From: Actinomycetota bacterium
Lineage (GTDB): Bacteria > Actinomycetota > Geothermincolia > Fen-727 > Anoxymicrobiaceae
Assembly: GCA_016927325.1 (NCBI GenBank)
Contig: JAFGMY010000031.1
Location: 1 to 38,653, forward strand
Direction of reading: 5' to 3'
DNA: 38,653 nt
Shown here: positions 3,596-32,353 of the stretch, piece after piece
Numbering within the stretch: position 1 is the first letter of the stretch
Layout of the letters: every line of letters begins with the position of its first letter
The notes under the pieces: generated by a model
What the model saw: only the letters and a program-made list of their open reading frames with translations
What the model was told of the DNA's origin: nothing
Databases searched by the model: none
Made by a program: the position numbers and the translations under genes

Positions 3596-4732
3596 ATGGA
3601 TGATATTCCGGTTTGTGAAAGATGCGGTGTTCCGCAGTTTGTGGGAAATGAACTGAGTTGGAGCAATAACGGCGTTATTCTTCTCGGGGGATCACCCGTG
3701 AACAGGTGGGTCTTCTATGAGTCCGACAACATAGACGCGCTTTTCTGTGGTCTCGAACGGCTGATTGGTGTGCCCCTGAACGACATAATAGTCGAAAGCA
3801 GAAGGCGGGAGACAAGGAAGTACCTGGAAAGGGTATATCCTTCAGAGATCAGGGATGTATTGAAGCAGGAGCAGTTTTCCGGTACCAGGGGAGAAGCGGG
3901 AAAGCATGAAGAGCTGAAAGCAATCTTTGAAATGGCGAAATCCATTACCACCAGTGTTCACAATGTGGCTAGAATTTATGGGTATGGAGACCTTGGGCTG
4001 GGTGATTCATGGGAGCGTGGAGACGCGTACCCATGGCGCGAGACCCGGGTGAAAAAGCCTTACTCTTTGCCTATGAATATGGCTGAATCCCTGGGATCGT
4101 GCGAAGCCTTTGAGGGAGTCGATTTAAGGGTAGATTATAAGGAAATCGCACCTGAAACATTTATATTTACCAGTTCGGAAGGCGAACATCCCATTCATCT
4201 TCGTGGACGGCTGAAGCAGAACCTCTATCAGTTCAAGCCAGGTGAAATAACTTATGACTGCTGCAGGAGTTGCGGTGTTCCGGAGGATATAGCGCGCTGC
4301 GTGTGGAACCTTGAGGAAGGCACAATATTTGATCCCGTCATAGAAAGAAGAATGGCCGTATTCGGGCCGTATACGATTGAATCATTGTTAAAAGATCTTG
4401 AGTCGGAACTGGGGGACGCGGTACCCCGGTTGGTTATTGAAGCACAAAGAGAGCATGTAAGGGGAGCGTTGAGCGGTGAGAACTGGAGGCTGAAAGCTTC
4501 ACACTACAACAATATGATTGCTCTCCGCGGCCTGGGGAACCTCGTGGAATTCAACGTGGATGAGAATGCGCTTACGTTATTGATTCAAAATGCCTGTATG
4601 CACCTGCTGATGGTTGGAACGGTCAGGGCTCTGGTTGAGATGGGAATGGGTTGGGAAAACTCTGATTATGAATACTCGATGGAGGAGGATGGAGATCTCT
4701 TTGTGAGAATCAGTTGTCGGGAAAGGATATGA
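3596..4732 (+). CDS. Unrecognised CxxC protein family, paralogue 1 of 3
   Basis: 378 aa; CERCGVP near N-term and CCRSCGVP at about residue 222; strongly similar to the next two ORFs. Confidence 0.85.
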   Translation: MDDIPVCERCGVPQFVGNELSWSNNGVILLGGSPVNRWVFYESDNIDALFCGLERLIGVPLNDIIVESRRRETRKYLERVYPSEIRDVLKQEQFSGTRGEAGKHEELKAIFEMAKSITTSVHNVARIYGYGDLGLGDSWERGDAYPWRETRVKKPYSLPMNMAESLGSCEAFEGVDLRVDYKEIAPETFIFTSSEGEHPIHLRGRLKQNLYQFKPGEITYDCCRSCGVPEDIARCVWNLEEGTIFDPVIERRMAVFGPYTIESLLKDLESELGDAVPRLVIEAQREHVRGALSGENWRLKASHYNNMIALRGLGNLVEFNVDENALTLLIQNACMHLLMVGTVRALVEMGMGWENSDYEYSMEEDGDLFVRISCRERI

Positions 4733-4827
4733 AGGCTAAACGGGTTCGTGCTTTGGCTGAAGGGCTGAGGTTTGAAATTAAAGCAATGCGCCGCATTAAG
4801 CGGGATAGAGGACGAGAATTTATTTAA
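4729..4827 (+). CDS. Candidate 32-aa basic microprotein
   Basis: MKAKRVRALAEGLRFEIKAMRRIKRDRGREFI; ATG overlaps the upstream TGA (ATGA), AAAGG just upstream; below ORF-track cut-off. Confidence 0.3.
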   Translation: MKAKRVRALAEGLRFEIKAMRRIKRDRGREFI

Positions 4828-4894
4828 GCTAAAGGAACAGCGCCTTTTGTATCGACAATAATAGAAAGGACTTTTAATTCGGGGGATGGAAGTC

Positions 4895-6040
4895 ATGGAC
4901 ATTCCATTGTGTAAAGAGTGCGGAGTACCGCTTCACCTGAGCAGGAATCTATGCTGGTGTGACAACGGCGTAATCTCATTAAGAGGTAATCCGGAAAAGA
5001 GATGGGTTTTCCTGGAATCGGAAAACATAGATAATCTTTTTTCCGAAATGGAAGATCTCATAGGGATTCCGATAGGCAACCTGATTATTGAGAGCAGAAG
5101 AAAGGGCGCAAGGAAGTACCTCGAGGAGATCATACCTGAAGAGTTAAGGGTATATTCCGGGAATGAAGCAAGAGCCGGAAGCGATGGCGAATTCCTGGTC
5201 GAGGCTGACGACAAGAAGAAGTTCATCAGCCTTGCAAAATCAATTACCCTCGATATCTATGATGTTGCAAGAGTATACGGATTCGGTGATTCCAGGCTTG
5301 ATCCGGCGTGGGACAGAGGTGACGTGTTTCCATGGCGTAACACCGTAGTCAGAAAGCCATACTCACTGCTTATGAATCTCGCCGAGAGCCTGGGACAATG
5401 TGAAGCGATGGAAGGCAGGGACCTCTGGATTGAATATGAAATAACCGGTAATGACCGATTCGTATATCATTGCTTCGAAAGCAGGCACCCGGTAAGCCTG
5501 GAAGGAAGGCACAAGAAAGAGCAGTACATATTGACTGCGGGGGACATTGAATATGAGAGGTGCCCGCAGTGCGGCATGCCTTCAGAAGTCGGTAAATATG
5601 AATGGAATCTTGACGACGGTACTATTATCGACAGTTCCAGGGAAAGGCGAATGGCCGTATACGGACCTTACGCTTTTGATTCAATACTGCGTGATCTTGA
5701 GCATGAGCTTGGTGATGAGGTACCCAACCTGGTGATCGAGGCCCAAAGGCGTTATATAAAAGAATCCTGGGGAAATGAAAACTGGAGGATCCCGGGGTTT
5801 GAGTTCAGACAACGTGTTGCTGTACGGGGCCTTGGAAACATAGTCCGTTTTGATCCTACCGTGAGTGAACACAAACTCCTCATTGAAAATCCATGTATGC
5901 ATCTGGTGATGGTAGGGATAGTCCAGGCCCTGGTGGAGTTGGCAAGGGGCTGGGATGCATCTTTCTCCAGTTATGAGTTGCGGGGCGACGGCAGTCTGGA
6001 AATAACGATCCGCCGTAAAACCGGCAACTCGCCGGAATAG
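4895..6040 (+). CDS. Unrecognised CxxC protein family, paralogue 2 of 3
   Basis: MDIPLCKECGVP... and YERCPQCGMP...; start MDIPLC chosen by alignment with paralogues and GGGGGATGGAAGTC upstream. Confidence 0.85.
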   Translation: MDIPLCKECGVPLHLSRNLCWCDNGVISLRGNPEKRWVFLESENIDNLFSEMEDLIGIPIGNLIIESRRKGARKYLEEIIPEELRVYSGNEARAGSDGEFLVEADDKKKFISLAKSITLDIYDVARVYGFGDSRLDPAWDRGDVFPWRNTVVRKPYSLLMNLAESLGQCEAMEGRDLWIEYEITGNDRFVYHCFESRHPVSLEGRHKKEQYILTAGDIEYERCPQCGMPSEVGKYEWNLDDGTIIDSSRERRMAVYGPYAFDSILRDLEHELGDEVPNLVIEAQRRYIKESWGNENWRIPGFEFRQRVAVRGLGNIVRFDPTVSEHKLLIENPCMHLVMVGIVQALVELARGWDASFSSYELRGDGSLEITIRRKTGNSPE

Positions 6041-6131
6041 GAGGGTATAGTCAAAAAATGCGTATACTGGAAATTATTGCTTTGAAATATTGATCAGGAG
6101 GTTGGAAACTGACGTTTAGTTCCTTACGACC

Positions 6132-7262
6132 ATGAAAGATATCCCCATATGCGGCGTTTGCAAGGTGCCGGTTTTTATCAGCAGAGAATTCGGGTGGGAG
6201 AAAAGCGGTGCGATTTTAACCCCTTCGTCCAGGGAGCTTCGCTGGGTTTTTCTGGAATCGGAGTATATCGACTTGCTGTTCAGGGGGCTTGAAGAGCTTA
6301 TTGGTGTACCGCTGGACAATATCGTGATTGAGAGCAGGCGCCGCGAAACCAGGCACTATATGGCTAAGATTTGGCCTCCGCAGGAAATTCGCGACTATCT
6401 TAACAGGCGCGACGGAGGCACTTCGACAAATGAGCCTGTTACACCGCGGGAAAAGGAAGAGTTTTATCGGCTGGCAAGATTGCAGGTCCTTGGTGTTCAG
6501 AATATCGGCAGAATCTATGGTTACGGTGAAATGTTTCCCGCAGATTCATGGGAACGCGGCGATTTGAATCCATGGCGCTTCAATATCCTGAGAAACTCTT
6601 ATTCAGTGCTTATGAACGTCGCTGTGCTTCTTGGTTCCGTCGAGGCTTTTGAGAAGAGGGACATGTGGGCGAAATATGAGCCGACAAATGAAAACACATA
6701 CACGGTAACCTGCTACGAGGAGGAACACCCGGTTCACCTGAGAGAGCGGCTCTGGAGGCAAAAATATGAATTGAAGCCGGGCGATATCACCTATGAATGC
6801 TGCCCGGAGTGCGGCTTGCCGGAGGAGATTTCCAGGTGTGTCTGGTTTATGGACAAAGGAATCATTTTTGATCCCCTTGTTAATCGAAGGATGGCGATAT
6901 TCGGCCCTTCGTCGGTGGACTCCATACTGAAAGACCTCGAGTTTGAACTGGGCGATGCCGTTCCAAGCCTGGTCATAGAAGCGCAGAGGCGTATTATAAA
7001 GAGTGAATTATCCAGTGAAGACTGGAAGAGACGCGCACCTGACTTCAAGCGAATGATATCTGCCCGGGGGCTGGGAAACCTGACGAATTTTAAAGGCGAC
7101 AAAACATACCTTACGTTAACGATCCAGAACTCATGTTTGACACTGATAATGGTTGGGTCGGTCCAGGCTCTGGTTGAGCTTGCTCTCGGGTGGGAATGCT
7201 CAGATTACGAATATGAACTGAAAGAAGATGGCGACCTGATTGTAACTATTAGGCGAAAGTAG
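6132..7262 (+). CDS. Unrecognised CxxC protein family, paralogue 3 of 3
   Basis: MKDIPICGVCKVP... and YECCPECGLP...; aligns end to end with paralogues 1 and 2. Confidence 0.85.
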   Translation: MKDIPICGVCKVPVFISREFGWEKSGAILTPSSRELRWVFLESEYIDLLFRGLEELIGVPLDNIVIESRRRETRHYMAKIWPPQEIRDYLNRRDGGTSTNEPVTPREKEEFYRLARLQVLGVQNIGRIYGYGEMFPADSWERGDLNPWRFNILRNSYSVLMNVAVLLGSVEAFEKRDMWAKYEPTNENTYTVTCYEEEHPVHLRERLWRQKYELKPGDITYECCPECGLPEEISRCVWFMDKGIIFDPLVNRRMAIFGPSSVDSILKDLEFELGDAVPSLVIEAQRRIIKSELSSEDWKRRAPDFKRMISARGLGNLTNFKGDKTYLTLTIQNSCLTLIMVGSVQALVELALGWECSDYEYELKEDGDLIVTIRRK

Positions 7263-24576: not shown

Positions 24577-25944
24577 ATGCATGCAGTGATTGCCGGTTGC
24601 GGAAGAGTAGGTGCGCAGCTCGCAGTATCACTTTCGTCTGAAAATCATGATGTGGTTATTATTGACAGGAAGGCAAATGCTTTCAAGCGTCTCGGTGATA
24701 AGTTCCATGGGCTCTGCATTGAGGGTATCGCGTTCGACGAAGAAACATTGATCAATGCGGGAATAAGAAGAGCGGGAGTTTTTACGGCTGTTACAGGTGT
24801 GGACAAATCCAATCTCATGGCCGGCCTGGTCGTGAAGCGAATTTTCAACGTTCCAAAAATTATGTCACGCATTGATAACAGTTTCCTTGAAGATGCCGTC
24901 TCCGTTGCGGGATTAGAAAAAGTATGCGGAACCAGAATGGTATCGGACGAGGTCCTGAAACTCCTTTTCTGCGCCGGCAATTATCGGGTTCTTGAAAAGA
25001 ATGATGATTACGGGCTTCTTGTAATCGGTTTCACGGTGCCGCAAGAGGCGTCGGGCATGCCGGTGTCTGAACTGTGCGACGGCAAGAAGTTGAGAGTAGC
25101 CGCGATCTCACATGATAACAGGGAAGAGTGTATCGAAAGCAGGACCAGGCTGGCCTGTGAAGATCAGGTAATTCTCGTGTCTTTGGAAAACGCATGGTCA
25201 CCGGTTGGTGAATTGCCCGGGATAGAAAAGAACGTGCTCGATCATATTCAAGATGGTGAGCCGGAAGATGCAAGAATAATCATAGGCGGCTGCAGTAAGG
25301 TGGGAGCCCGACTTGCCATGCAATTGATGGAAAAGGGTTTCAGGATTTCCGTTATTGATGACAATCCGGAAAAGTCGGAAAGAGTGCCGGCCAACAGCTC
25401 GGTTCAGTTTATAGAGGGTCTGATTTATGAGGAAAGCGCTTTGGTCAAGGCAGGCGTCGAGGAGGCAACAGCTTTTATCGCGGTAGGCAAGCTCGATAAC
25501 GAGAACCTGATGGCCGCGGAGGTGGCAAAGCGAATCTTTAATGTTCCGCGTGTGTTATCAAGAGTGTTCAACCCGGACAAAGAGGCTACATATCATGCGC
25601 TTGGCACTAAGCATGTGTGCGGCACTGAAATATTATACCGTTCGATTCTGGGGGATATTCTCCATCCGAAAATTCGAACCCTGTCTTACAGGGCGCTGCT
25701 TGATTACGACCTGGTCGAATTTGAATGCCCGCCAATCTGGCACGGCAGAAGTCTCGGGTCTCTCGCCTCCGGCAAGGGGATGTGTTTCATTTACCTCATC
25801 AGGGGAAGAACATGCAACTTCCCGGAGCGTGACCTTGTCCTTGCGGAAAACGATATTCTGGGTGCTCTTGCAACTCCTGGGATGTTATTGAAAGTGGACA
25901 GGCACATGGAAAAGAAAGGGAGGTGGCTGCCATCCACCTGGTAA
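24577..25944 (+). CDS. trkA: TrkA family potassium uptake protein with two fused RCK modules
   Basis: Two Rossmann starts (VIAGCGRVGAQLA; IIIGGCSKVGARLA), each followed by a C-terminal domain. Confidence 0.92.
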   Translation: MHAVIAGCGRVGAQLAVSLSSENHDVVIIDRKANAFKRLGDKFHGLCIEGIAFDEETLINAGIRRAGVFTAVTGVDKSNLMAGLVVKRIFNVPKIMSRIDNSFLEDAVSVAGLEKVCGTRMVSDEVLKLLFCAGNYRVLEKNDDYGLLVIGFTVPQEASGMPVSELCDGKKLRVAAISHDNREECIESRTRLACEDQVILVSLENAWSPVGELPGIEKNVLDHIQDGEPEDARIIIGGCSKVGARLAMQLMEKGFRISVIDDNPEKSERVPANSSVQFIEGLIYEESALVKAGVEEATAFIAVGKLDNENLMAAEVAKRIFNVPRVLSRVFNPDKEATYHALGTKHVCGTEILYRSILGDILHPKIRTLSYRALLDYDLVEFECPPIWHGRSLGSLASGKGMCFIYLIRGRTCNFPERDLVLAENDILGALATPGMLLKVDRHMEKKGRWLPSTW

Positions 25945-26585
25945 TTGCCGGAGGCGGCAAAGTCGGGGCTTTCCTTGCGAACAAGCTGGCCGGAAAGAAT
26001 ACCATAGTCATAATCGAGAAAGATCCAACAGTTTGCAAGGAGCTTTCAAAGACAACAAAGTCTCTGGTAATTCAGGGCGACGCCTGTGACTACAGGTATC
26101 AGGAGGAAGCCCGGGTGGATCGATGCGACGTATTCGCTGCCGTAACGAGTGACGACGATGATAATCTTGTGGCATGCCAGTTGGCAAAGACAGCTTTCAG
26201 CGCCGGGCGAGCCGTTGCCCGCGTAAACAACCCGAAGAATGAACGGATCTTCAATTTGATGGGAATAGACGCCATCTCCAGCACGACTATTATCGGTCAC
26301 CTCATAGAGGAGCGGGCCACCATTGGTGATATCCTGACGCTTCATGTGATGAAGTCGGGCCAGGTGGAAATAGTGGAGATAGATATCCCGGAAACAGGAT
26401 GCCGCTCGTGCAACCGTCAACTGCGCAGCCTCGGACTTCCGGAAGGTTGCGTGCTGGTTTCCATTATCCGGGGGGATGATGTGGTTATTCCCAGGGGAAG
26501 TGACATGATACTGCCCGGCGATTCAATCATCGCCGTGACTTCGACGGAAAATGAGGCTGAACTGAAGAGGGCACTTGCAGAATGA
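25923..26585 (+). CDS. trkA: TrkA family potassium uptake protein (single module)
   Basis: IHLVIAGGGKVGAFLANKL; overlaps upstream trkA by 22 nt; C-terminal RCK_C-like end. Confidence 0.92.
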   Translation: MAAIHLVIAGGGKVGAFLANKLAGKNTIVIIEKDPTVCKELSKTTKSLVIQGDACDYRYQEEARVDRCDVFAAVTSDDDDNLVACQLAKTAFSAGRAVARVNNPKNERIFNLMGIDAISSTTIIGHLIEERATIGDILTLHVMKSGQVEIVEIDIPETGCRSCNRQLRSLGLPEGCVLVSIIRGDDVVIPRGSDMILPGDSIIAVTSTENEAELKRALAE

Positions 26586-26779
26586 AAATATTGCATGTTT
26601 TCAAGAGGAGCAGGAAAAAGACGGACGGACATGGAAAAAGCGATGGTTATTTCCTTGAGGCCCGGTTTGGAGAGTGGGGGTACTACCTCCTGGGAATCGT
26701 CATGGAAGTTTCAATGGTCGCGGCCTTTTCCCTTGCCGCGCTTCTTGTGATGATAATCGTCAAGGCTGTCGTGACGTGA
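26582..26779 (+). CDS. Small single-TM membrane protein in trk operon
   Basis: 65 aa; ATGA overlap with trkA stop and GTGA overlap with trkH start. Confidence 0.7.
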   Translation: MKILHVFKRSRKKTDGHGKSDGYFLEARFGEWGYYLLGIVMEVSMVAAFSLAALLVMIIVKAVVT

Positions 26780-28293
26780 ACCTCCGCCCGACACTTAATG
26801 ACTTCAGATTAATAGGGTGGGGAATCGGCCGGGTGGTTCTGTCCGTCGGCCTGATCATGGCTGTTCCGCTTGCCACCGCTCTCATCTGTGGGGAGTGGAA
26901 TGTATGCACTGATTTCCTGATAGGAATTTCCGCTTGTCTGATATTCTGGCTGGGAACGGAAATCACCTGCCGGGTCACCCTCGATCTCAGGGTCTCTCAC
27001 GGCCTGGTGGTGGTATCTGCGGGATGGTTGTTCGCTATGGTTTTCGGTGCGATTCCCCATTACCTTTCCGGCCACTTCAGTTCATTCCTGGACGCCTGCT
27101 TCGACGTCATGAGCGGCTTCACGACAACGGGATTATTCTTGCTCCAGGACCTGGACCATGTGTCCAACGGGCTGAACATGTGGAGGCATGTATTAACATA
27201 TGCCGGCGGGCAGGGAATCATTGTTGTTGCCCTGACATTTCTGTTTGTCAGGACATCAGGGGCATTAAGCATTTATCTGGGAGAGGGCAAAGAGGAAAAA
27301 CTGCTTCCCAACGTGGTTAATACCGCAAGGGCAATATGGATGATAAGTCTTACATATCTGGTAATCGGCAGCGTTTTTCTTTTTGTCGCGCTGAAGACCT
27401 GCGGTATGACTCCGGGCAGGAGTTTTCTGCATTCAATCTGGCTTTTCATGGGCTCCTGGTCCACGGGCGGCTTTGCACCGCAGAGTCTCAATCTGCTTTA
27501 CTATCACAGTTTCACGATTGAGCTTATTACCATGGCGATATTCGTTATCGGGTCACTCAACTTTGCGCTCCACTATTCGGTATGGACCGGGAAGCACTCA
27601 GAGATATGGAAAAACATTGAAATCAGGTCTTTTGCAGTAACCGCCCTGGTTGTTACATTCTTTGTGTCGCTGGGTTTTTCCAAATTGGGTGTATACACAA
27701 CAATCAACGAGTTTTTCCGCAAAGGTTTTTACATTATGATTTCAGGCCATACGACCACCGGAAACGCCACGGTCTACTCTTCATCCCTTGTTAATGAATT
27801 TGGTGTTCTGGCACTGTGGGCGATTGTTTTCGCCATGGCAATAGGAGCCAGCGCCGCGTCTACGGGGGGCGGCTTTAAAAACCTCAGGGTGGGAATACTC
27901 ATTAAGAGCCTCTGGCTGGATATCAGAAAGATGGCGTCACCCGATTCGGCGGTATTGAGTGAAAAGGTTCATCACCTCAACGACTTATGGATCGACGATC
28001 CGCTGGCTCGCAGCGCGGCGCTTATTATCCTGTGCTATATCGCCATATACTTCATGGGAGGCCTGCTTGGGGTGGCATACGGGTTTTCTCCTTCAGTTGC
28101 GTTTTTCGATTCCGTAAGTACTGGGAGCAATACGGGTCTGTCGGCTGGCCTGGTATCGCCTGTGATGCCGGTTCTGTTGAAGGTCTACTATACCCTCAGT
28201 ATGTGGGTCGGCCGTCTTGAGTTTATATCCATATTCGCGTTAATAGGTATGGGCGCGTCGATTGTGAGAGGAAGAAAGGTCGGCGGATCATGA
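26776..28293 (+). CDS. trkH: TrkH family potassium uptake membrane subunit
   Basis: Multi-TM with DVMSGFTTTGLF and GSNTGLSAG filter-like segments; start taken at GTG 26776 (VNLRPTLNDF). Confidence 0.93.
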   Translation: MNLRPTLNDFRLIGWGIGRVVLSVGLIMAVPLATALICGEWNVCTDFLIGISACLIFWLGTEITCRVTLDLRVSHGLVVVSAGWLFAMVFGAIPHYLSGHFSSFLDACFDVMSGFTTTGLFLLQDLDHVSNGLNMWRHVLTYAGGQGIIVVALTFLFVRTSGALSIYLGEGKEEKLLPNVVNTARAIWMISLTYLVIGSVFLFVALKTCGMTPGRSFLHSIWLFMGSWSTGGFAPQSLNLLYYHSFTIELITMAIFVIGSLNFALHYSVWTGKHSEIWKNIEIRSFAVTALVVTFFVSLGFSKLGVYTTINEFFRKGFYIMISGHTTTGNATVYSSSLVNEFGVLALWAIVFAMAIGASAASTGGGFKNLRVGILIKSLWLDIRKMASPDSAVLSEKVHHLNDLWIDDPLARSAALIILCYIAIYFMGGLLGVAYGFSPSVAFFDSVSTGSNTGLSAGLVSPVMPVLLKVYYTLSMWVGRLEFISIFALIGMGASIVRGRKVGGS

Positions 28294-28880
28294 AAATTAA
28301 TGTCCGCGGAAGAAGGATCTTCGCTGTGATCACAGTTGCGGCAATGTGCCTGTTGCTGCAGACCCCATATTGCAGGGGAACTGCTGCAGCCTATGACACG
28401 AACCGCATTTCTATTTCCGAACTGATAGATGAAATGGATAAATATGACGGAATGTCTGTTACTGTTAAGGGCGAGGTGATCGGAGACATCATGATCAGGG
28501 GGGAGTATGCCTGGATAACTGTCAACGACGGACCGTACAGCGAGAAGAACCTGGAGAGTGGTGCAGAGTTCTCAGGTGTCAGCAATATCGGGATTGGTAT
28601 CTGGATCCCCAGCGGGGATGTATATTCGATCAAGAGCGTTGGTGGTTATTCGAGAAAAGGTGACACAGTCGAGGTTGAAGGTGTTTTTCACAGGGCTTGC
28701 TCAGAGCATGGCGGTGATACCGATATCCATGCCAACTCCCTGAAAGTGGTAAGAGAAGGTTATGTAATACCGCATCCGTTTAGTTACTTCAAGTTGCTGA
28801 TCGCCGCGTTACTCGCTGGTATCTCCGGATTATTGATTTATGTTCTGGTGAAACGCAAGAAAAAGTATACTGAAGAATGA
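28290..28880 (+). CDS. Exported OB-like domain protein with C-terminal TM
   Basis: Signal peptide; SVTVKGEVIGDIMIRGEYAWITVNDG...; C-terminal TM and basic tail; ATGA overlap with trkH. Confidence 0.7.
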   Translation: MKINVRGRRIFAVITVAAMCLLLQTPYCRGTAAAYDTNRISISELIDEMDKYDGMSVTVKGEVIGDIMIRGEYAWITVNDGPYSEKNLESGAEFSGVSNIGIGIWIPSGDVYSIKSVGGYSRKGDTVEVEGVFHRACSEHGGDTDIHANSLKVVREGYVIPHPFSYFKLLIAALLAGISGLLIYVLVKRKKKYTEE

Positions 28881-28997
28881 CAACTGAATAACAGCTTTAA
28901 CATGGCGTCAACTGTACTTGGGATTATATGGGGACGAACGGATGTATGGCATGAGTAAAGATAAACCTGAGAAATCGACTATCCCGGAAAATTATCC

Positions 28998-31646
28998 ATG
29001 AAGGCTGGAAACGGAGAATTAACAGTATTTCTTGGAGCGGCGGCGGGAGTCGGAAAGACTTACGCAATGCTGCAGGCTGCGCGCGAATGGGCTTCCGAAG
29101 GGGTGGATGTGGTTGTCGGCTGGATCGACATACATGGCGACAGAGATATGGCGCGGCTTCTTCAGGGCATGGAAGTGATCCCCCCGTCAGCAGTATGCCG
29201 CGAAGTGTCAGCACTGCATGAAATGGACCTTGACGCCATACTTGACCGTAAGCCCGAACTCGTGCTTGTCGACAATCTCGAGCATGTCAATGCCCACGGG
29301 GCAAGGCACAGTAAACGTTATCTGGACATAGAGGAGTTGCTTGACGCCGGGATCAGCGTAATTACTGCTGTCAATATTCACGGTATCGAGAGTATGAGTG
29401 ATGTCGTGAAAAGGATAACCGGAATAAGCACGGAAGACAGGGTCCCGGATTCTTTTTTCAGACGGGCCTGTATGATCCAGGTTGTGGATATCCCGGCGGA
29501 AGTGCTTGTCAAAAGGTTCATAAAAGGCCATCTGGACGCCGCTGATTTGGCGGAAGGGGAAGTAGAAAGGCTGTCACTTGTAGATAATATTAATACGCTC
29601 AGAAAAATGGCTCTAAGATTCGCGACCCGGCACGTTGACTCCGATTCTCATTACGCGGATTCTGGAAACGGCACACCGGAGGCATTATTTTCTGCGGAAC
29701 GGGTCCTGGCCTGCATCGGTCCCAGTCCATTCGGATCTCAGATTCTCAGAGCCGCGAAGCGTCTTTCCGATAACATGAGATGCGGTCTTGCAGCTCTCTA
29801 TGTCGTTGTTCCGGGGGCAAGGCTCAGTGAAACCGACACCGATTATCTCGAGAACAACGTCAATCTTGCTGAAGAACTGGGCGCGGAAGTGATACAGGAG
29901 AGTGGGAGCGATATTGCGGCGACAATCCTCAAGACGGCGGCTGAAATAAACGCTTCCCAACTGGTTCTTGGCAGACCTCTTGGAAATCGATGGAAAGAAA
30001 TACTGAAAAAATCCATCGTTGATCGTATCATCACTAGAGACAAGACGGTGGAGCTTCACATTGTGCCGGGCTCGAAGGATGAACTGCCGAGACGCAATGC
30101 CGGGGCAAGACACTCGCCCGGCAGGCACAAAATATTACAGTATTTGGTGATAGCAGCGCTAATTGCCGCTATTGCCCTGTTCTGTAAAACAACGGGTGGT
30201 ATTGTGGACCGCACTGACGTAGCGATGCTTTTCCTTCTGCCTGTGCTTTACGCGGGAGCTTTCGTAGGGGTTACTCCTTCTATAATCGCGGCGGTGGCAA
30301 GTGTTCTCGTTTTCGACATACTGTTTGTTCCACCCCTGTATCAAGTTACGGTATACGATATAAATTACCTGATAAGCTTTGCCGTGTTTCTGCTGGTGGC
30401 GGTAAGCACCGGTTTGCTGGCGAGCAGGTTGAGGCGGCAGATACTGGAGTCCACCAGCGCTGAGAAGCGTGCCAGGACATTATACAACCTGAGTCGGGAG
30501 TTGACGGTTGTTCCGACAATTGAAGATTTCAGCATGGTCCTTGTGCATCAGGTGAATAAAATATTCAACATGGGCACGGTTCTGTATCTGCCTGACGCCG
30601 GTTCCAAGCTTAAACTCGCCGCCATGAGCGTGAATGAAAAAGAAAAAGCCGCCATTGAATCAGAGTCGTCAACTGCGGTGTGGGTTTTTACTCACGGTCA
30701 GATTGCCGGAGCCAGAACCAACACTTTGTCTGAAGCAAGGGCGATATACTTTCCTCTCAAAACAGAAAACGGGGTTATCGGCGTAATAGGATTTGCGGAA
30801 GAATCGAACCCCCCGGTAACACGTTTGAAGCGGCAAGAGACATTTCAGGCAATAACCGATCTGGCTACCCTTGCGCTGAACAAGCTTCATCTCTCACTGG
30901 CTACACAGCAGGTTCAATCCATGGAGGCAAGCGAGCGTCTGTGGAACGCGTTGTTTGACTCCGTTTCGCACGACCTTAGAACACCACTTTCATCTATCAC
31001 CGGCGCGGTGACGACATTGAAGGATCACGGTGCGGGGTTGACATCCGAACAGAAGAGTTCCCTTCTCAAGAATATCGAAAAAGGTTCCGCCCAGATGAAC
31101 AGGCTGGTAGGGAAACTGCTTGATATGGCCAGGGTAGAGAGCGGAAGCCTTCATATCGAGGAGGAATGGTGCGATATACAGGATATCGTCGGCGTGGCTC
31201 TCTCTGATTTGTCCGACGACCTGGAGGAGCGTGATATCAAGTTGGTGATACCGCCGGACCTGCCTCTGATAAAGGCGGACTTCGGCCTGATAGTACAGGC
31301 GCAGATAAACCTGATTGACAATGCCATCAAATATTCACCGGAAGAAAGTGAGATTGAAGTTTCCTGGTGTCTCGAGAAGGGAGACATTTTTGCTTCGGTT
31401 GGGGACAGGGGCCTGGGGATAAGCGTGGATGCAAGAAAAAAGGTGTTCGACAAGTTCAGCAGGTTGAATTCGGATCATGCAATTCAAGGCACTGGATTGG
31501 GGTTGTCGATCTGCAAGGGAATTGTCGAAGCGCATGGAGGAAGAATCTGGGTGGAGGACAGGCCCGGCGGCGGCTGTCTTTTCAGGTTCAGCCTCGACGT
31601 GGATAAACTTTACCCTGAGATGATGGAGGAAATTGAAAGGAGCTGA
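28998..31646 (+). CDS. kdpD: KdpD-type sensor histidine kinase
   Basis: N-terminal KdpD domain FLGAAAGVGKTYAMLQAA, Usp-like region, DUF4118 TM block, H-box SVSHDLRTPLSS, HATPase. Confidence 0.95.
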   Translation: MKAGNGELTVFLGAAAGVGKTYAMLQAAREWASEGVDVVVGWIDIHGDRDMARLLQGMEVIPPSAVCREVSALHEMDLDAILDRKPELVLVDNLEHVNAHGARHSKRYLDIEELLDAGISVITAVNIHGIESMSDVVKRITGISTEDRVPDSFFRRACMIQVVDIPAEVLVKRFIKGHLDAADLAEGEVERLSLVDNINTLRKMALRFATRHVDSDSHYADSGNGTPEALFSAERVLACIGPSPFGSQILRAAKRLSDNMRCGLAALYVVVPGARLSETDTDYLENNVNLAEELGAEVIQESGSDIAATILKTAAEINASQLVLGRPLGNRWKEILKKSIVDRIITRDKTVELHIVPGSKDELPRRNAGARHSPGRHKILQYLVIAALIAAIALFCKTTGGIVDRTDVAMLFLLPVLYAGAFVGVTPSIIAAVASVLVFDILFVPPLYQVTVYDINYLISFAVFLLVAVSTGLLASRLRRQILESTSAEKRARTLYNLSRELTVVPTIEDFSMVLVHQVNKIFNMGTVLYLPDAGSKLKLAAMSVNEKEKAAIESESSTAVWVFTHGQIAGARTNTLSEARAIYFPLKTENGVIGVIGFAEESNPPVTRLKRQETFQAITDLATLALNKLHLSLATQQVQSMEASERLWNALFDSVSHDLRTPLSSITGAVTTLKDHGAGLTSEQKSSLLKNIEKGSAQMNRLVGKLLDMARVESGSLHIEEEWCDIQDIVGVALSDLSDDLEERDIKLVIPPDLPLIKADFGLIVQAQINLIDNAIKYSPEESEIEVSWCLEKGDIFASVGDRGLGISVDARKKVFDKFSRLNSDHAIQGTGLGLSICKGIVEAHGGRIWVEDRPGGGCLFRFSLDVDKLYPEMMEEIERS

Positions 31647-31651
31647 AAACT

Positions 31652-32353
31652 ACGTCAAGTACAAGCGCCAGAATTCTGGTAGTCGATGACGAGATAGAGA
31701 TACGAAGGCTCCTGAAAGTAGCACTTGGTGCTCAGGGCTATACCGTGATAATGGCAAAAACCGGCCGAGATGGGATAAGTAAAGCCGCCCTGGAGCACCC
31801 GGACATAATCATACTTGATATGGGATTGCCTGATATCGAAGGGCTTGATGTCATAAGAACCGTAAGGGAGTGGTCATCTACACCGATAATTATTCTTTCC
31901 GTAAGAGAGAGGGAAAAAGATAAGATCACAGCTCTTGATTCCGGTGCAAGTGATTATGTGGTGAAACCCTTTAACATGGGAGAGCTCATGGCCCGGGTGC
32001 GCGTAGCCCTGCGAAGCCTGGTCCCGGGAGGTGACAAGCCGGTTATTGAAGCGGGGAGACTGAGCATGGACCTGTCGAGAAGGGTGACTTCTATTGACGG
32101 CAAAGAGATCAAATTGACTCCAACGGAGTATGAACTACTGAAGCTGCTTGCAACCAACGCCGGCAAAGTCGTAACACAGAAGCAGTTGCTTGCCCATGTA
32201 TGGAACACGCAGTCCATGGAGAATTCTCAGTACCTGCGCGTTTATATCAGCCAGTTACGAAAAAAAATCGAAGTGGACCCCTCCAATCCGCGGCACCTTT
32301 TGACCGAACCCGGCGTGGGGTACCGCCTTGCTTTGCCTGAAGATTATGTGTAG
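31652..32353 (+). CDS. kdpE: KdpE-type response regulator (OmpR family), non-canonical start inferred
   Basis: REC domain SARILVVDDEIEIRRLLKVAL begins upstream of the first ATG/GTG/TTG (GTG 31745); ACG 31652 lies 9 nt after GGAG; C-terminal OmpR wHTH. Confidence 0.9.
   Translation, partial: TSSTSARILVVDDEIEIRRLLKVALGAQGYTVIMAKTGRDGISKAALEHPDIIILDMGLPDIEGLDVIRTVREWSSTPIIILSVREREKDKITALDSGASDYVVKPFNMGELMARVRVALRSLVPGGDKPVIEAGRLSMDLSRRVTSIDGKEIKLTPTEYELLKLLATNAGKVVTQKQLLAHVWNTQSMENSQYLRVYISQLRKKIEVDPSNPRHLLTEPGVGYRLALPEDYV

Follow-up and report, generated by a model that had tools for sequence, protein, structure and literature searches.

The window, by which we mean the whole stretch of 38,653 nucleotides analysed here, carries three consecutive open reading frames on its forward strand. 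Paralogue 1 (3596..4732) encodes 378 amino acids, paralogue 2 (4886..6040) encodes 384, or 381 if translation starts at the ATG at 4895, and paralogue 3 (6132..7262) encodes 376; 153 bases separate paralogues 1 and 2, and 91 bases separate paralogues 2 and 3. The list of open reading frames, the alignment and the family profile place a CxxC knuckle in each half of these proteins, at C7xxC10 and at residues 223 and 226 in paralogue 1. An earlier note on this DNA had described three diverged frames that align from end to end. The computed full-length alignment agrees, with 46–51% identity and a mean column identity of 69%, and every motif quoted in that note is found in the three proteins.

The genes on either side, an HdeD-like DUF308 gene upstream and a small lipoprotein-like frame downstream, are unrelated to the trio and lie on the opposite strand. 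Thus, the trio is a free-standing tandem. At 6152-6170, inside the first codons of paralogue 3, there is a terminator-like hairpin with a T run after it; six terminator-like sites were observed in the region against 3.3 ± 2.0 expected, and they are probably due to chance. Elsewhere in the window, at 24577-32353, a potassium-uptake region can be read by eye, with two TrkA-like genes, a TrkH-like channel, a KdpD-like kinase and a KdpE-like regulator, and with no kdpABC adjoining the KdpD-like gene.

Internal duplication and fold

The earlier note missed two features of the family: the proteins are internally duplicated, and at least 21 more paralogues are present elsewhere in the genome. When the family alignment is cut just before the second CxxC and the two halves are compared with hhalign, they match at 99.7% (E 5e-27, 156 columns), and at 99.8% (E 5e-30) when the comparison is repeated with 115 sequences; column-shuffled and reversed controls reach 1.3% at most. 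The repeat is also detectable inside each window protein taken singly, with z-scores of 6.3, 8.9 and 8.2. The family protein is, then, a CxxCGxP knuckle plus an alpha/beta domain of about 150 residues, present twice. In paralogue 3, the N-terminal repeat (6132..6767, forward strand) has its knuckle at residues 7-10, followed by a V4R-like domain in which the AlphaFold2 model places an additional helical segment at about residues 84–128. The C-terminal repeat (6768..7259, same strand) has its knuckle at residues 224-227, followed by the second V4R-like domain.

Family proteins of 350–390 residues consist of the two repeats and nothing else. A candidate fusion to a further domain, a 647-aa frame at one locus, was rejected; its continuation resembles frameshifted readthrough more than a domain. 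No single-repeat relatives were seen, and matches to a model of the C-terminal half sit in frames of about 360 residues, except for frames that are broken or run off a contig end.

To which fold do these halves belong? AlphaFold2 models paralogue 3 with a pLDDT of 93.3 and a pTM of 0.91, and its C-terminal half alone with 90.5 and 0.84. A Foldseek search of the PDB with the full model returns H-NOX, YslB, MopR, PoxR, TPC6, Bet3–Trs33 and the V4R protein MJ1460 at E 1e-3 to 4e-2, and the top 50 matches all share the superfamily or, as for BcsD, the fold, bar a few designed proteins. The best matches of the C-terminal half alone are to the aromatic-sensor domain of MopR, PoxR and DmpR, over the entire domain (E 4e-6 to 2e-5, query TM 0.63–0.66); such TM-scores, near 0.65 for the query, are moderate, and the sequence identity is about 15%. 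Profile–profile comparison with V4R proteins of the same class gives scores of 41–44 (88–91%) for the C-terminal half and 33–37 (51–75%) for the N-terminal half, where shuffled controls have maxima of 16–18, at about 1% probability. With XylR-type sensors, the C-terminal half scores 30.8, shuffled profiles reaching 16.7 at most, and the first hairpin and helix are aligned, the RM...lG motif included; the positive control, V4R against XylR sensors, stands at 98.8%.

According to Podar et al. (PMC2253512), helix 5 of V4R and Bet3 carries a small-xxx-small motif. This motif is conserved in both halves of the family, as G342xxxG/A346 and A/G164xxxG168, and the second GxxxG of V4R, in helix 2, is represented by one conserved glycine per half only, G58 and G274. 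On the strength of Foldseek searches with the predicted structures and of the profile comparisons, each half belongs to the V4R / XylR_N / H-NOX / TRAPP-Bet3 superfamily, and we hold the architecture and fold of the family, a tandem of V4R-like domains, with high confidence. The earlier statement that no named full-length family is recognisable stands insofar as no curated model reaches its cut-off, but the fold and superfamily can be named.

Indeed, Pfam and NCBIfam searches with the window proteins give no model at cut-off, the weak matches being zinc-knuckle fragments only, and PHROGs and PADLOC give no match. The Pfam V4R model (PF02830) has no match in the genome of the window and does not rank in the top 25 families by number of matches from 67 members at E<=1. 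The XylR_N model (PF06505) finds nothing in 248 genomes of the phylum, that of the window included, and since the positive controls are also silent, this informs only on the reach of the model. A rubrerythrin-like match (E 0.16) is not supported by the fold. DUF2378 (PF09536) of myxobacteria, likewise a set of paralogues specific to its lineage, may be of the same clan; its model matches no member of the present family, and the single weak stretch belongs to a different locus.

The closest comparison is with the MopR/PoxR/DmpR/XylR sensors, in which XylR_N and V4R are combined. They give the best fold match to a single half, share the W/F...G.I...RM motif of the hairpin with the first helix after it, and have a dimeric arrangement that we would expect in the family as well. 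Unlike in those sensors, the domain is duplicated within one chain and an N-terminal CxxC knuckle is added, and the V4R cis zinc ligands and any AAA+ or DNA-binding domain are lacking. With V4R proteins at large (PF02830, COG1719), the family has in common profile homology, the helix 5 motif and the alpha/beta fold of MJ1460, Bet3 and MopR, but none of its members was reported as matching the V4R model, and it has no C-terminal Cys motif, is arranged in tandem and reaches a copy number far above theirs. In 2008, a set of seven in Ignicoccus was regarded as unusually large (PMC2253512).

Conservation points to where a metal might be held. The four knuckle cysteines are all present in 113 of the 115 members, and no other cysteine is conserved among them. 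The other most conserved positions are a few glycines, one tryptophan and one arginine per half, and a glutamate of the last helix (E171, E349). Neither domain has a conserved histidine, the sole one above 50% being H199, in the linker. In MopR-type sensors, three cysteines and a glutamate form a zinc site within the V4R part (PMC7264223, PMC10715001). Given the absence of further conserved cysteines and of a domain histidine, both that site and a haem ligand are absent; the family shares a superfamily with the H-NOX/HNOB haem sensors but has no conserved histidine fit to serve as a proximal haem ligand.

The sensor domain of DmpR binds phenol and zinc as a dimer in which the N-terminal arms of the two chains interlock (PMC7264223). 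The family knuckles occupy the corresponding arms. This arrangement, with two cysteines per half, suggests one zinc common to both halves, and we judge that a metal site shared in this way is somewhat more likely than not. Members also have weak but recurrent matches to zinc-finger, zinc-ribbon, rubredoxin-like and L37e knuckle models.

Copy number, distribution and genomic context

The genome from which the window comes (2.47 Mb in 178 contigs, 82% complete) carries at least 24 distinct paralogues, as singles, pairs and triplets, and the family makes up about 1% of it. Phylogeny and copy-number variation, both named as checks in the earlier note, have now been examined. Each of the 32 genomes sampled from the class has the family, with 6 to 102 matches of a half-domain model per genome, equivalent to about 3–6 to ~50 genes. 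The 366 other genomes searched in the phylum have no copy. Within the sampled Actinomycetota, the family is therefore restricted to this class. By tblastn it is absent from 72,556 plasmids and 50,697 phages, and no viral fold was matched, so that a mobile or phage origin was rejected; a defence system was likewise set aside for want of a PADLOC match.

In a tree of 115 members, the three window proteins form one clade (SH-aLRT 99), next to which branches a member from an Actinomycetota metagenome-assembled genome. The trio thus arose by tandem duplication within the lineage, after the split from its nearest sampled relative. Other copies are old and form orthologous sets that hold the same syntenic position across genera and sometimes families, beside AddAB-like nuclease genes, TRCF helicase, PhoU and GltX, thiolase, MazG and B12-radical-SAM, or carboxylase genes (some of these names were read by eye from the sequence). 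Orthologue pairs have dN/dS of about 0.1–0.2 (NG86), which indicates functional genes under purifying selection. Together, fixed synteny and purifying selection support distinct, retained roles for the family. The earlier note had preferred specialised roles to recent duplication. An identity of 46–51% does mark an old split, and the synteny of family paralogues and the selection on them favour specialisation; the trio itself, however, is one clade made by duplications internal to its lineage.

Most copies stand alone or in tandem with another copy, and no constant partner gene emerges among neighbours that are housekeeping or unrelated. A histidine kinase or response regulator was tried as such a partner and rejected, being nearby in 14 of 26 cases with about 15 expected. 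Four genomes (loci L110, L117, L121 and L132) have, in a conserved order, a B12-binding radical-SAM gene, a family member and MazG on the other strand, followed by histidine-kinase/response-regulator genes.

A possible sensing role and its alternatives

What would such a protein do? The published view of V4R domains is that they bind hydrophobic ligands and signal in cis or in trans (PMC2253512). We propose that the gene product would be a soluble, single-chain pseudo-dimer of two V4R/XylR_N-type domains, each preceded by its CxxCGxP knuckle. On the model of MopR, PoxR and DmpR, in which separate chains interlock their N-terminal arms, the halves would pack as a fused dimer, and the two knuckles would meet in a single four-cysteine zinc site that staples the arms. 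Each half would contain a hydrophobic pocket, and a small hydrophobic or aromatic metabolite bound there would alter the packing of the halves. Because the chain has no DNA-binding, ATPase or kinase domain, signalling would be in trans. The tens of paralogues per genome would then be a repertoire for different ligands, in which cysteines and glycines are kept and most other positions are free to vary, and these bacteria may thus possess many intracellular chemical sensors that have so far escaped study. For a ligand-sensing role as such we see the chances as roughly even, and we are equally divided on the full proposal of a fused-dimer V4R-type protein for hydrophobic ligands, stapled by one zinc and signalling in trans.

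A different use of the same pocket would be that of a ligand carrier or chaperone, which binds a hydrophobic cofactor or intermediate and passes it to an enzyme, different paralogues serving different enzymes. A carrier role of this kind has been proposed for BchJ, a photosynthetic V4R protein. Radical-SAM or B12-radical-SAM genes directly adjoin the family gene in seven of the nine cases with that cluster (P 5e-4, uncorrected), but these represent about three distinct syntenic positions and the association would fail strict correction. Moreover, most copies adjoin unrelated housekeeping genes. The V4R proteins have also been connected with the allosteric control of reactions in which hydrophobic molecules take part (PMC2253512), which is compatible with a carrier, yet on the whole we consider this reading unlikely.

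Somewhat less probable still is a ligand-free scaffold or assembly platform, comparable to the TRAPP heterodimer (Bet3/Trs33) or to BcsD. Bet3–Trs33, TPC6 and BcsD are all among the Foldseek matches, as dimeric relatives with the same fold, and conservation is dominated by cysteines, glycines and a few charged residues, with no obvious pocket signature. Indeed, BcsD and the TRAPP subunits are structural proteins and not small-molecule sensors despite the common fold, which counts against our sensor reading. On the other hand, they have no sequence match to the family, Bet3-type dimers are made of separate chains, and a single half is closest to ligand-binding sensor domains, not to TRAPP or BcsD. 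A scaffold would also leave unexplained the need for at least 24 diverged paralogues scattered over the genome. Finally, the CxxC motif also occurs in redox-active proteins and the family conserves no more than two cysteine pairs, but a thiol-disulfide switch or reductase in place of the zinc site is improbable, since the CxxCGxP context and the recurrent, if weak, zinc-knuckle-type matches favour metal knuckles and the thioredoxin fold is absent from the Foldseek matches.

Returning to the zinc-stapled, ligand-sensing pseudo-dimer, it is tempting to extend it to the whole class, which would then possess a private repertoire of up to ~50 such proteins per genome, each for a different hydrophobic metabolite and each acting on an effector in trans. 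We put this forward tentatively, as rather less probable than the sensing role itself; if true, it would be a cytoplasmic counterpart of an odorant-receptor family in a class of uncultured Actinomycetota.

The fold and superfamily are already known; what the searched family models do not cover is the duplicated knuckle plus V4R-like arrangement devoid of an effector domain, and the size of its expansion. Our literature search found no paper that describes either. The TRAPP subunit Bet3 is considered to descend from prokaryotic V4R domains, for which there is no settled general function. With so many natural variants, the ligand, the role of zinc and the signalling of the family are open to experiment, and recognition of the family, for which there is no Pfam or NCBIfam model, would allow hundreds of hypothetical proteins to be annotated.

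Two further groups of genes accompany the family. A very divergent subfamily (branch length 2.2; L117 1277-2434, L017 239-1399, and the 12.0–13.3 kb regions of L121 and L132) retains the tandem arrangement and may be a second family with a separate function. True single V4R proteins, about 250 aa long and often encoded as tandem pairs, are present beside the tandem-repeat family in 12 of the 32 class genomes (L083–L106, e.g., G024:C15, G029:C180 and G026:C85).
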